Positions 13,268-16,827 of a stretch of DNA of 34,707 bases are shown here, one piece after another; the stretch's first letter is position 1; every line of letters starts with the position of its first letter. Source of the stretch: Westiellopsis prolifica IICB1 (GTDB taxonomy: Bacteria > Cyanobacteriota > Cyanobacteriia > Cyanobacteriales > Nostocaceae). Where the stretch lies: positions 2,427,152 through 2,461,858 of the forward strand of contig NZ_NAPS01000001.1 in assembly GCF_004323185.1 (NCBI RefSeq), in the 5' to 3' direction. A model generated the notes under the pieces. The model saw only the letters and a list, made by a program, of their open reading frames with translations, made no database searches and was not told the origin of the DNA. The position numbers and the translations under genes are program-made.

Positions 13268-13341
13268 CAGCTAGACGCGATCGCACAATAAATTTTGTCT
13301 CGAAAAACCTATAAAATCCTTGAGGTGAGGGATTAGACCTA

Positions 13342-13749
13342 TCATTTACCACCTGCATTCGTAATGTAAGTCGATACATTCGTAATGTAAGTCGATACAT
13401 TCGTAATGTAAGTCGATACATTCGTAATGTAGGTCGATACATTCGTAATGTAGGTCGATACATTCGTAATGTAGGTCGATACATTCGTAATGTAGGTCAA
13501 TAAGTTAGTATAAATCTGCTTAGAAGTCTGTTTAAAAGATGGTTGGGTCAATTTCTCAAAGGTTGTTTTGGGGTTAGAAAAGAATTCGTAACCACGTTTT
13601 AGGTCACTAGCGCTTTGAAATATTTGTGATAGAGGCTCACCATATTTTACTTTTAAAGCCTCCGCAATTAACACTGCTCTGTTAGTCAGACGTTTGTCAC
13701 CAAAATCACAATTGCGGTACGGATTCGCTTCTAATAGTTTCATTTGCAC
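13342..13749 (-). pseudogene. IS4-family transposase N-terminus fused to 21-bp tandem repeats
   Basis: An intact 135-codon frame. Residues 1-80 match the N-terminal DNA-binding region of IS4-family transposases (CDFGDKRLTNRAVLIAEAL, SASDLKRGYEFFSNPKT, LTQPSFKQT). Then, instead of the catalytic DDE domain, come seven heptapeptides TYITNVS encoded by the 21-bp repeats at 13356-13502, and a short tail. The transposase is therefore truncated and cannot transpose. The frame remains open through every repeat because 21 is a multiple of 3. It could be a dead relic or an expressed DNA-binding fragment. Confidence 0.72.
13356..13502. repeat. Seven tandem 21-bp repeats
   Basis: Unit CATTCGTAATGTA[A/G]GTCGATA repeated seven times without spacers. 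Units 1-3 carry A and units 4-7 carry G at position 14; unit 7 ends GTCAATA. Each unit together with the preceding A contains the small palindrome ACATT-CGT-AATGT. The split of variants shows stepwise local duplication. Not CRISPR, as there are no spacers. Confidence 0.92.
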
Positions 13750-14329
13750 CCCAAAATACTACACTACAAGCACCTTACATTAGAAGACGCAAATCATCTT
13801 AAGTTCAAAGAATTAGTTCGCGATAAAGCATCGCGAACCAATCCCCTTTTCCACATCCCGTGAAAAGTCAGGGGGAAAGCTGGTACTACTGCTCACATTG
13901 ATGCTGTTATGTCTGTAATGAGACGTAGTATTTGGGATGAGATCCAAAAAGTCATTAATAGTCTTGATGATTGCTTGCTAGATATTAGTTCTGGCTCTGA
14001 GCAAGAATCAGAAGAACAAGAGGATTGAACCGCCCTTTTTCTTCGCGAGATAATATCGCGAAGAATGTGTTTTTTCCAAATTGGGATGCTCCCGTTTTAA
14101 ACTCTATGATGCACTACATTTTTATTAGAAATATAAATTTTATTAATATCAAAATATCTAGCTTAAATTACTAAATAATATTAAGATAATATAAAAGTAA
14201 GCTGCTAATCGCTGCTTGTAACAATTGTACGTCATTAGCTCAGGTAAATTGAAAAGTTACCGCTTTTCCCTTACCTTTTCGGTTTACCCTGTCAAACAAA
14301 CTTGGCAAACTATTAGGTATTAAATAATA
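13750..14329. other. Intergenic region with hairpins and a gene remnant
   Basis: Two related inverted repeats, GTTCGCGA-7-TCGCGAAC (13816-13838) and CTTCGCGA-7-TCGCGAAG (14041-14063), bracket a short acidic frame (13909-14028). The rest, 14064-14329, is AT-rich and holds the upstream region of the 82-residue exported protein. No RNA gene recognised. Confidence 0.55.
13909..14028 (+). pseudogene. 39-codon acidic frame, probable C-terminal gene remnant
   Basis: ATG-started frame of 39 residues: a helical part (RRSIWDEIQKVINSLDDCLL) followed by an acidic tail SGSEQESEEQED. The same frame is open upstream of the ATG for about 14 more codons. It looks like the end of a larger lost protein, but I do not recognise the family. 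It is bracketed by two TTCGCGA hairpins. It might also be a genuine small protein. Confidence 0.3.
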
Positions 14330-14578
14330 ATGTTAAAACGTCGCACAATACTAGCCAGTCTAGCTGCGCTTGGCTTTATTTTGGCTGTGAGTACACAGGT
14401 TTATGGAACAACGGCTACCGGGCCGGACGCTTGGGAGACTGTATACAATAATGCAGTTGCCCACGCAACGACGACAATCCCACAAGTATCGCTTCTTGGT
14501 ATTATTACTGGTCTGATAGATGACTTGGTCACATTTCTCAACGTTTATAACTTGTTGAGCGGATTTTGGGCTGGTTAA
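14330..14578 (+). CDS. Small exported protein of unknown function
   Basis: 82 residues. The N-terminus MLKRRTILASLAALGFILAV is a typical Sec signal with likely cleavage after QVYG (residue 26). The mature 56 residues contain a Trp-rich start (DAWETVY), a Thr run and a hydrophobic IITGLIDDLVTFLNVYNLL segment that could be an amphipathic or membrane helix. I do not recognise a family. It is the first of three consecutive genes for exported proteins on the plus strand, about 190 bases before the carbonic-anhydrase-like gene. No strong ribosome site. Confidence 0.6.
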   Translation: MLKRRTILASLAALGFILAVSTQVYGTTATGPDAWETVYNNAVAHATTTIPQVSLLGIITGLIDDLVTFLNVYNLLSGFWAG

Positions 14579-14765
14579 TTCTCTGTCTTATAAGCAAGTA
14601 AGAAAGAGTTGAAAAGGGGAATTATGGCAATATGATTTTTTGCTAATTCCTTCGTTTGGCCTGGAGTTTCGCTCACCATAGGCGACGCTAAATAGTATCT
14701 CTTCCTCGTTAACACAAATTATTCCGCAAATAAATACTCCATAGCTCGTGAGGAGCCTTCTTTTA

Positions 14766-16049
14766 ATGTTCAAACCTCGCACAATTTTTAGTGCCTTTAC
14801 TGCAATCATCCTTGCGTTTGTCCTAGTTATACAGGTAGATGCACAACCAGCCCTTGCAACCCTTGCTTCGTGTAGTCCAACTGCGGTTAACCGACCTATC
14901 TGTCCCAGTACAGCAGCCTCAACGGAAGCTAATTTTATTGACCCAGCTGCGATAATTACCAATCCCGCAAATATTACCTTGGAGGGAAAAGTCTACGTTG
15001 CACCATTTGCTCGGTTAAATGCTACTAATGGCCCCATCATTATCCGTGAAGGATCCAACGTCCAAGACCAAGTGAGCATTACACCTTCAGTAGCGGGGTC
15101 AACTATTGGTGAGCGAGTCATCCTGGCACACTTGGCCACTGTCAAAGGTACAGCCAAAATCGGTCTTACTGGCTCAACTGGGCCTTTTACTGACCCCGTG
15201 AGCGGTGTTCAGTTTAGCAACACTCAGCCAGAGACATTCATCGCCTTCAACGCTGAAGTAGACGGTGCAACTATAGAGTTCAACACCGTAGTCAATTTTC
15301 TCTCGCGGGTCGGCCCTGGTGTTACCTTACCCTCTGGTAAAGTTGTCCTCCCAGGTAAAAATGTTACTAGTAACATAGAAGCTACTAGTGGCAGTTTGGG
15401 GAAGGTGTCTAACCTGACACAAGCCGATGTTGCATTGATGCAGGGTGTGATTGCAGTTAATCAGTCATTGGCCCAAGGTTATACACAATTAGCCCTAGCC
15501 AATCCGTCAAATGTCACAGGGATAAATTTCAGTCCATCCACCCCTAATAACCCAACACCAAGTTTGCCAACCATAGGTGGGGTTACTACTCAAGATCCCA
15601 ACTACCCTAACCGCATCATCGGCAATGTGATTCTGCAAGATTCTCTCGCAGCCTTAAACCAGAAATTAGGTAATAGAATTTCCATCCGTGCTGATGAGGG
15701 TCAACCTTTTAACATTGGGATACTTGCCGGTGTAGCAAACGATGTTGTCTTTCATGGTTTAGCGACAACTAATCTGACTATTGGTAATGGAAATGGTTAT
15801 GGGCCTCGTGTTCTAGTTCATGGTGGTAGGCAGGTTGTCAATGGTGTTGATAGTGGCCCGGAAACTAAGCTAGGTGATGACGTAGGGTTAGCACCTGACG
15901 TTGTTATATTCCGTGCAGAAATTGGTAACAAATCAGCCGTGGGAAGAAAAAGCGGTGTCTTCAATTCCACACTACCTTCTAGAACGCATATCCGTTCAAG
16001 AACTATCTATGCCGATAACGGCAGCCTAATTTCAAAGGTAGAGTGGTAA
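14766..16049 (+). CDS. Exported tandem gamma-carbonic-anhydrase-like beta-helix protein
   Basis: 427 residues from the ATG at 14766, chosen because GAGGAG sits 10 bases upstream; a GTG at 14748 is less likely. Signal peptide to about residue 34 (cleavage near QPALA). Two left-handed beta-helix halves follow, each alignable to Cam of Methanosarcina thermophila. Half 1 (about 60-245) has VYVAPFARLN, SNVQDQV, ILAHLATVKG and the Cam-like tail LPSGKVVLPG ... LAQGY. Half 2 (about 280-420) has SIRADEG, NDVVFHG and RVLVHGG. In Cam numbering, half 1 keeps Asn73, Gln75, Asp76 and His117. Half 2 keeps Arg59, Asp61, Glu62, His81 and His122. Neither half alone has all three zinc histidines. Activity unproven; it could hydrate CO2 in the periplasm or be a structural relative. 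Confidence 0.78.
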   Translation: MFKPRTIFSAFTAIILAFVLVIQVDAQPALATLASCSPTAVNRPICPSTAASTEANFIDPAAIITNPANITLEGKVYVAPFARLNATNGPIIIREGSNVQDQVSITPSVAGSTIGERVILAHLATVKGTAKIGLTGSTGPFTDPVSGVQFSNTQPETFIAFNAEVDGATIEFNTVVNFLSRVGPGVTLPSGKVVLPGKNVTSNIEATSGSLGKVSNLTQADVALMQGVIAVNQSLAQGYTQLALANPSNVTGINFSPSTPNNPTPSLPTIGGVTTQDPNYPNRIIGNVILQDSLAALNQKLGNRISIRADEGQPFNIGILAGVANDVVFHGLATTNLTIGNGNGYGPRVLVHGGRQVVNGVDSGPETKLGDDVGLAPDVVIFRAEIGNKSAVGRKSGVFNSTLPSRTHIRSRTIYADNGSLISKVEW

Positions 16050-16161
16050 TCATACCAATTCGCAATTTGTAATTTAATGAGGCTTAGATGTGTAGCAGGA
16101 TTGTTTTTTGCTGCATCTGATGCCTAATTTTGAAGAATCGGGTTAAGCATTTAAGTTTTGC

Positions 16162-16743
16162 ATGACTATGAATTTTAAAATCCTCCCCCTAGTGCCTTCA
16201 CGATGCCTACGATTGGTTGTGCTTCTCACTTTGATATTCGGACTGATGCTAGGTCTTGATGTCAGTTCATCTATAGCTGCACAACAGGTTGAGCAACCTG
16301 GATATATAGAATCTGTTAATTCTCAGTCGCCGCAAGTCGTACAACCTCCAGTTACCGGACTCGTTTCTACCTTGTCGGATGAGGTTAAGGAATCAACAAC
16401 AAATTTGATTAACTGGTCAACCTACTGGAATCTTTGCTGGGAAGCTTATCCAGGGGCTAAAGAGTACGAACTGCAAAAGGTGCTGGTGGATGGTGAGTCT
16501 CCAGATTTACAACGTCAAAGCGATCGCTGTTTTCATCTCCAAGCTGCATCAAACGAAAACCTCAAATCACAAGGCTTACTCAACCGAGATTTAATCTTAT
16601 TAGTACATAAAACTCAGCTTGCTTATCGAGTCCGAGCCGTTCTAGATGATAACCGCGTCAGTGAATGGTCTACAGTCATGGCAGTTGGTGCAACTACTGA
16701 ACCTGAATCGAATGCTACTTCCATCAGTGTAAATCCTTCATAG
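16162..16743 (+). CDS. Exported protein with fibronectin-III-like domain
   Basis: 193 residues. A signal peptide at about residues 14-40 (hydrophobic LVVLLTLIFGLMLGL, cleavage near SIAA) leads to a Pro/Gln-rich linker. Then comes a beta-sandwich-like part: NLCWEAYPGAKEYELQ (strands B-C of an FN3 fold), and AYRVRAVLDDNRVSEWSTV, the usual FN3 F-G strands with the Tyr-x-Val-Arg-Ala pattern. Two Cys (in NLCWEA and SDRCFHL) may pair outside the cytoplasm. No enzyme motif. It follows the carbonic-anhydrase-like gene by 112 bases and may share its role, which is a guess from position. Confidence 0.6.
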   Translation: MTMNFKILPLVPSRCLRLVVLLTLIFGLMLGLDVSSSIAAQQVEQPGYIESVNSQSPQVVQPPVTGLVSTLSDEVKESTTNLINWSTYWNLCWEAYPGAKEYELQKVLVDGESPDLQRQSDRCFHLQAASNENLKSQGLLNRDLILLVHKTQLAYRVRAVLDDNRVSEWSTVMAVGATTEPESNATSISVNPS

Positions 16744-16827
16744 TCAGGACTTAGGCACAGGTTTGGGAGTAAGGGTATAGGGGAAATGGTGTTCTAAATC
16801 CTTACACTTCTATACTCCTATACCCTT

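Follow-up and report, generated by a model that had tools for sequence, protein, structure and literature searches.

Complementary active-site residues in the two fused halves of a probably exported gamma-carbonic anhydrase-like protein of cyanobacteria

The locus and its three-gene cassette

The window analysed here is a stretch of 34,707 nucleotides from Westiellopsis prolifica IICB1 (NZ_NAPS01000001.1, positions 2,427,152 to 2,461,858). It carries a cassette of three genes on the same strand, the second of which encodes a double-length protein related to gamma-carbonic anhydrases (gamma-CAs; Table 1). The reading frame of this carbonic anhydrase (CA) gene is listed from a GTG at 14748, with an ATG at 14766. 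Its product begins with basic residues, after which comes a strongly hydrophobic segment (mean Kyte-Doolittle 3.17), and the protein is therefore probably exported. Signal-like N-termini were recognised by a simple hydrophobicity rule (limit 1.8) in 56 of 57 family proteins, the only miss being the Deinococcus protein described below, at 1.76. A first-pass annotation, made from the letters of the window alone, had described the protein as secreted, which these N-termini, together with the signal-like starts of its neighbours, make probable.

The 82-aa product of the first cassette gene matched no Pfam family above cut-off, and neither did the 193-aa product of the third, which also had no convincing relative in the PDB. 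A fibronectin-type fold, considered for the latter by eye, was rejected, as no domain or structure library backs it. Matches to both proteins accompany the CA gene at 23 relative loci (L033-L055), that to the 193-aa protein being partial in L054, and the order and strand of the three genes are the same at 23/23.

At the five loci that share the DNA block around the cassette (Table 1), the flanks do not match those of the window. The match in L036 begins at 14131, and on the left side the similarity among L033, L034, L035 and L038 runs on for about 80 to 220 bp beyond that with the window. The synonymous distance of the CA gene to L033-L036 and L038 is low (0.006-0.046) although the record titles name several genera, which suggests a recent spread of the cassette. 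No transposase gene was seen within the block (14094-16825), its edges showed no convincing terminal inverted repeats, and the promoter-like and terminator-like counts in the cassette were within about one standard deviation of those in shuffles. Fortiea sp. LEGE XX443, in which the other gene type is present too (L046), has a tandem duplication of about 180 bp at the beginning of its CA gene (L034 4983-6465). Elsewhere in the window, a 21-bp tandem repeat (13335-13531) encodes a repeated YITNVST and sits in a minus-strand reading frame (13342-13749) whose N-terminal part matches IS4-type transposases.

Table 1. Features of the window and of genes adjoining distant (group 2) relatives; locations are window positions unless a locus is named.
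Feature	Location	Strand	Remarks
Shared DNA block with three genes, about 2.73 kb	14094..16825	.	95-99% identical in L033, L034, L035, L036, L038
Small protein, 82 aa, first cassette gene	14330..14578	+	Signal-like N-terminus (by eye); match at 23/23 loci L033-L055
Double gamma-carbonic anhydrase reading frame	14766..16049	+	427 aa, probably exported
Signal peptide, approximate	14766..14858	+	End near ...QPALA; cleavage site judged by eye
Half 1: left-handed beta-helix with C-terminal helix	14931..15521	+	Keeps Asn98, Gln100, Asp101, His122, Asn232 (Cam 73, 75, 76, 117, 202)
His122 codon (Cam His117), half 1	15129..15131	+	Predicted zinc ligand; conserved 56/56
Half 2: beta-helix without C-terminal helix	15522..16046	+	Keeps Arg308, Asp310, Glu311, His330, His352 (Cam 59, 61, 62, 81, 122)
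His330 codon (Cam His81), half 2	15753..15755	+	Predicted zinc ligand; conserved 56/56
His352 codon (Cam His122), half 2	15819..15821	+	Predicted zinc ligand; conserved 56/56
193-aa protein, third cassette gene	16162..16743	+	Signal-like N-terminus (by eye); match at 23/23 loci L033-L055
Beta-CA gene next to group 2 gene	L090 4227-4925, L091 4169-4858, L092 4189-4884	same strand	Pro_CA 1e-38 to 1e-39
CobW-like gene next to group 2 gene	L133 5211-6281, L134 5152-6222, L135 5189-6271, L138 2736-3803	same strand	L134 by eye

Two Cam-like units in one chain

In a phmmer search of the PDB, the window protein matched Cam, the gamma-CA of Methanosarcina thermophila (1thj; E 6.7e-10, whole protein), its residues 257-400 (433-aa numbering) aligning with Cam 10-153, and a second, weaker stretch, residues 161-247 in the same numbering, corresponding to the C-terminal part of Cam. 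The two stretches indicate two gamma-CA units, a complete half 1 and a half 2 without the C-terminal helix, which bears out the first-pass claim of two Cam-like beta-helix halves in a single chain. The Pfam scan returned no family above cut-off for this protein, and hence no RbcS family such as the RbcS-like repeats of the carboxysomal protein CcmM would give. Matches to NCBIfam models of gamma-carbonic anhydrase and CcmM were weak and far under the curated cut-offs (77.7 bits vs 380; 48.4 bits vs 550 for the CcmM model).

For the more distant relatives (group 2, below), a profile search found Cam at 1e-32 and CcmM at 3e-26. Of the NCBIfam models, the CcmM model NF053794 scored best with the group 2 proteins scanned (E 1e-53 to 1e-58, whole protein), its best stretch falling in half 1. 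A sequence relation to the beta-helix domains of Cam and CcmM is thus present, at a level that for the window protein does not reach the NCBIfam equivalog cut-off.

Division of the active-site residues between the halves

Conservation was assessed in an alignment of the halves of 31 close relatives (group 1) and 25 distant relatives (group 2) with Cam, 18 CcmM-like domains and 10 other single-domain rows; residues are given below in Cam numbering. The nine residues that the first-pass annotation had placed by eye align to Cam as it described. Each of the ten Cam site residues (59, 61, 62, 73, 75, 76, 81, 117, 122 and 202) is present once in the window protein, the Asn202 equivalent (N232) only in half 1, because half 2 stops before the C-terminal helix. 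In 30 of the 31 group 1 rows for half 2, an Asn appears at 202; as this half lacks the helix, it is a residue from near the C-terminus that has been misaligned.

The complementary pattern, whose conservation in homologues had been suggested as a check, held in 56/56 double-length relatives. Half 1 kept Asn73, Gln75, His117 and Asn202 in all 56 (31 close and 25 distant) and Asp76 in 55, the remaining one having Glu, and had Glu62, His81 and His122 in none; half 2 kept Arg59, Asp61, Glu62, His81 and His122 in all 56 and had Asn73, Gln75 and His117 in none. The three zinc histidines of the gamma class (81, 117 and 122) were accordingly supplied by both halves together in every protein (56/56) and by no half alone (0/112 halves), while Arg59, Asp61, Glu62, Gln75, Asp76 and Asn202 each stood in the half of their own side. 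All ten site residues were kept in 28/28 of the single-domain and CcmM comparison rows, the CcmM domains having the full set in 18 of 18.

These counts, and those for 46 relatives given below, exclude frame-split or partial sequences (the second copy in the W. prolifica genome, L002/L003/L105; L015/L072 of genome G005; L073 of genome G545; the second copy in L035; L081), and each gene was counted once. L011, in which the frame departs from the family after about residue 382, was counted. The pieces in L072 and L073 show the same split.

Conservation in one half and not the other marked eight of the nine site columns among 46 relatives and 8 of the 119 remaining columns (Fisher p 8e-8, a value that is indicative, as the rows are related and the nine columns were picked by the earlier reader). 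The ninth column, Asp76, fails because half 2 of group 2 also keeps an acid there. Synonymous codons varied at all nine kept positions in group 2, and it is therefore the residues, not the DNA, that are held there at least; in group 1 they varied at 4/9, and the invariance of Arg59, Asp61, Gln75 and His122, whose codons do not vary, says less. The dN/dS to relatives of about 70% identity was moderate (about 0.3-0.5), which was counted against the explanation preferred below. The proton shuttle of Cam, Glu84, is replaced by Ala in the window protein, and among the 46 relatives this position holds Glu in 21, Ala in nine and Thr in one of group 1 and Lys in 14 and Arg in one of group 2. Membership of the CamH subclass, which is without Glu62, was rated low, since half 2 carries this residue in 56/56.

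Distribution and origin

A scan of contigs found 26 loci, comprising 23 full relatives (L033-L055, 66-98% identity), whose record titles include Nostoc, Anabaena, Fortiea and Fischerella, and three single-domain gamma-CAs. In a draw of 386 cyanobacterial genomes, group 1 was present in at least nine, the window's own included, and the same draw held three distant relatives of 379-404 aa (31-34% identity over the matched part) and a partial fourth (in G005). A profile built from the three distant relatives defined group 2, full or partial members of which occurred in at least 15 of 388 genomes of an order-level draw (E below 1e-60) and in at least 14 of 388 genomes of a class-level draw (E <= 1e-40), G005 being counted in both. 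The genome counts are lower bounds, as at most four candidates were scored per genome. Including the window's family, members fell under seven cyanobacterial family labels (f1, f3, f18, f22, f26, f50, f71). Three queries had no match on viral contigs, and a fourth gave one gamma-CA contig (L089), which was left out of the comparisons.

Outside the cyanobacteria, plasmid 3 of Deinococcus deserti encodes a member of group 2 (WP_012694801.1, annotated as carbonate dehydratase; L142 2261-3403). The motifs of this protein show the complementary split, and its gene was likely acquired by horizontal transfer.

Trees of the halves were built from 10 proteins per group, out of 31 in group 1 and 15 in group 2. 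Half 2 of both groups formed one clade both with the site columns (support 100/97) and without them (100/100), a result suggesting that the duplication preceded the divergence of the groups. Half 1 of both groups came together with the site columns (97/88), but this grouping fell to 8% of bootstrap trees when they were removed, and a single fusion event behind both groups, although likely from these sequences, is therefore stated with reserve and is not proved. Both trees carried a long-branch warning; the tree with site columns included five mislabelled double proteins (L049, L059, L083, L084 and L086), and that without site columns excluded these five and the distant single-domain rows L056-L058. 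Mean identity across the groups was 26.7% for half 1 and 32.1% for half 2, and that between half 1 and half 2 was 20.4% within group 1 and 27.8% within group 2. Each group has conserved cysteines of its own, in a CxPTxxNxPxCPS pattern in group 1 (31/31) and an (I/V)C(I/L/V)(G/E) motif in group 2 (26/26), and these would be consistent with disulfides formed outside the cytosol.

The subunit interface and the arrangement of the halves

In gamma-CA trimers, two zinc histidines come from one monomer and the third from the next (PMC4519908), and an Asp-Arg-Asp* triad joins the Arg59 and Asp61 equivalents of one chain to the Asp76 equivalent of the next (PMC8000050). The interface table of the latter places the equivalents of R59, D61, H81 and H122 on one side and those of Q75, D76 and H117, with the C-terminal helix, on the opposite side; the Asn73 equivalent does not appear in that table. 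One of the four structures behind it is a crystal structure (6IVE) and three are homology models, and its residue numbers were converted to Cam numbering through anchor residues, a mapping of our own. Half 2 of the double protein keeps the first side of this interface and half 1 keeps the second, helix included. As the halves keep opposite sides, a zinc site is predicted only where half 2 faces half 1, and the first-pass proposal to that effect agrees with the published two-sided interface.

The explanation we prefer, with a probability of about 0.75, is an exported gamma-class carbonic anhydrase that was duplicated and fused and that has one active site shared between complementary halves. 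An ancestral Cam/CcmM-like subunit would have been duplicated and fused, after which one side of the active site would have been lost from one copy and the opposite side from the other. Each half would fold as a triangular beta-helix prism, one face of half 2 presenting two zinc histidines with Arg59, Asp61 and Glu62, and one face of half 1 presenting the third histidine with Gln75, Asn73, Asp76 and the helix bearing Asn202. Packing of these two faces would create one zinc site, at which CO2 and bicarbonate would be interconverted in the periplasm or the extracellular space, and the protein probably has a single site in contrast to the three of the usual three-part enzyme.

The shared site could also form between chains, in mixed three-prism rings where half 2 of one polypeptide rests against half 1 of a different one; each ring would comprise two first halves and one second half, or the reverse, and have exactly one site. 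Such rings, which we consider not far short of an even chance, agree with the gamma-CAs described in the portions of the literature compared here, all of which are three-prism rings, and with group 2, in which the split is less extreme: half 1 keeps Arg59 in 21/25 and an acid at 61 in 25/25, and position 76 of half 2 is acidic in 25/25, so that the reverse interface looks retained there. In group 1, by contrast, half 1 has Arg59 in 0/31 and has lost nearly all hydrophobic residues of the corresponding face, which argues against a closed ring.

Two rounds of face comparison used positions that we chose from the published table, each round with its own list. At 11 positions of the face bearing His81 and His122, half 1 of group 1 had a mean of 0.68 hydrophobic residues, compared with 5.0 in half 2 of group 1, 4.24 in half 1 of group 2 and 4.06 in CcmM. 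At seven positions of the other face, half 2 of group 2 was strongly acidic (mean net charge -4.5; CcmM -1.0), and half 2 of group 1, which has lost the site residues there, was hardly changed in hydrophobic count (1.48 vs 1.89 in CcmM). For group 1, the window protein included, we infer from these residues a single gamma-CA interface per pair of halves; in group 2, a second interface may be kept as an acid-base contact without zinc.

The polar face of half 1 and the lost site residues of half 2 suggest that the unit of group 1 may be a two-prism pseudo-dimer in place of a three-prism ring. Under this more specific form of the preferred explanation, which is tentative and against which the odds lean, one exported polypeptide would have left the trimer as two complementary prisms with a single interface and one zinc site, and group 2 would be an intermediate in which the second interface persists as a salt-bridge contact without zinc. 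Two single-chain AlphaFold2 models, built from shallow alignments (24 and 26 rows), were of low confidence (pLDDT 45.6 and pTM 0.41 for model 1; pLDDT 54.4 and pTM 0.56 for model 2). A Foldseek search with the low-confidence model 2 gave no match to a PDB chain at E <= 0.001, and the best 50 of 114 matches include no gamma-CA.

Function and comparison with known carbonic anhydrases

Loss of Glu84 bears on two further readings, both unlikely. According to the first, the protein would be a catalytically dead scaffold or binding protein whose fold is kept for assembly, as in the complex I of ciliates, where a zinc-free gamma-CA heterotrimer serves as scaffold (PMC10060162); the CcmM proteins of two model cyanobacteria are likewise called non-functional (PMC9120777, PMC5472144), and two more genes with signal-like starts accompany the CA gene at 23/23 loci. 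The invariance of the first-shell and second-shell set in 56/56, together with the codon variation at nine positions in group 2, speaks against a dead protein, for which there is no evident reason to retain Gln75, Asn73, Glu62 and three histidines in complementary fashion. According to the second, equally improbable reading, the site would bind a metal together with bicarbonate or some other small molecule, and would serve sensing, transport or a reaction other than CO2 hydration. Some gamma-CAs are without detectable activity (PMC7199487), and the cassette partners are without assigned function; but Glu62, Gln75 and Asn202, linked to catalysis in Cam (PMC4519908), are kept, and a beta-CA gene adjoins the group 2 gene at 3/25 loci. 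CcmM is reported to be active without Glu84 (PMC4519908). Coincidental decay of two degenerate halves, which the divergence of these proteins might suggest (101/119 non-site columns show Cam-like conservation in neither half among 46 relatives), is contradicted by the invariance in 56 relatives and by the column test, and can be dismissed as extremely improbable.

Cam (1thj, 1qrg) is related in sequence to the window protein, in which all ten of its site residues compared here occur, Glu62 included. Cam itself may be exported. However, Cam is a homotrimer with three sites and the full set in each chain, whereas the two fused halves of the window protein share one set, from which Glu84 is missing. 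The N-terminal domain of CcmM, whose NCBIfam model best matches those group 2 proteins that were scanned, comes from the same phylum, but CcmM is carboxysomal, has RbcS-like repeats and carries the full set in its domain, unlike the double protein with its signal-like N-terminus and split set.

In plant complex I, a gamma-CA-fold heterotrimer of gammaCA and gammaCAL subunits has one working zinc site, which lies between two full gammaCA chains, one subunit having lost two of the three histidines (PMC7567890). The resemblance to these trimers noted in the first pass therefore holds for the single site in a heteromeric assembly and not for its position, which in the plant complex, as the available part of that source describes it, is not between complementary halves. 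The plant assembly is mitochondrial and made of separate chains, some with all three histidines, a condition found in 0/112 halves here; in the window protein both partners are incomplete, fused and probably exported.

The extracellular alpha- and beta-CAs of cyanobacteria, EcaA and EcaB, would likely share their compartment and chemistry with the double protein, and a beta-CA gene with an export-like start adjoins group 2 genes of one genus. The folds of EcaA and EcaB are unrelated to gamma-CA. They are the only non-carboxysomal cyanobacterial CAs named in the available text of two sources (PMC9120777, PMC5472144), so that the preferred explanation, if true, would add the gamma class to alpha and beta among extracellular CAs of these bacteria, which matter for both carbon uptake and carbonate chemistry. 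Npun_F3687 of Nostoc punctiforme, predicted to be a periplasmic CA, is up-regulated in co-culture, its class not being given in the part of the source seen (PMC11890772).

Among the matches listed in open-licence literature (titles and abstract openings), no fused or complementary gamma-CA was found, and the single match to duplicated gamma-CA concerned, as far as the excerpt goes, gene copies in fungi (PMC13098186). The gamma-CAs described in the sources compared are trimers with sites between subunits; a fused complementary pair is a natural experiment on the need for the trimer and on the ways in which duplicated domains may divide a shared active site. If the pseudo-dimer is real, a symmetric three-site ring would be reducible to an asymmetric one-site enzyme.

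Other carbonic anhydrase genes and neighbours

The W. prolifica genome holds a second copy of the CA gene and the downstream gene (G000:C1:2654663-2656522; L105 6508-8526), of the type about 70% identical, in which the CA gene is frame-broken and the downstream gene open. It also encodes a CcmM above cut-off and six beta-CA matches, and gave no alpha-CA match.

In three genomes of a single genus (three of 25 group 2 loci), the group 2 gene is followed on the same strand, after 9-11 bp, by a beta-CA gene whose start is twin-arginine-like (Table 1). At four group 2 loci, a CobW-like gene lies about 70 bp upstream, also on the same strand; its reading as a zinc chaperone was rejected, as the genes in L133, L135 and L138 match CobW above cut-off and ZigA below. 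At L096, L097 and L098, the next gene after that of group 2, on the same strand, encodes a copper amine oxidase (L097 and L098 by eye).
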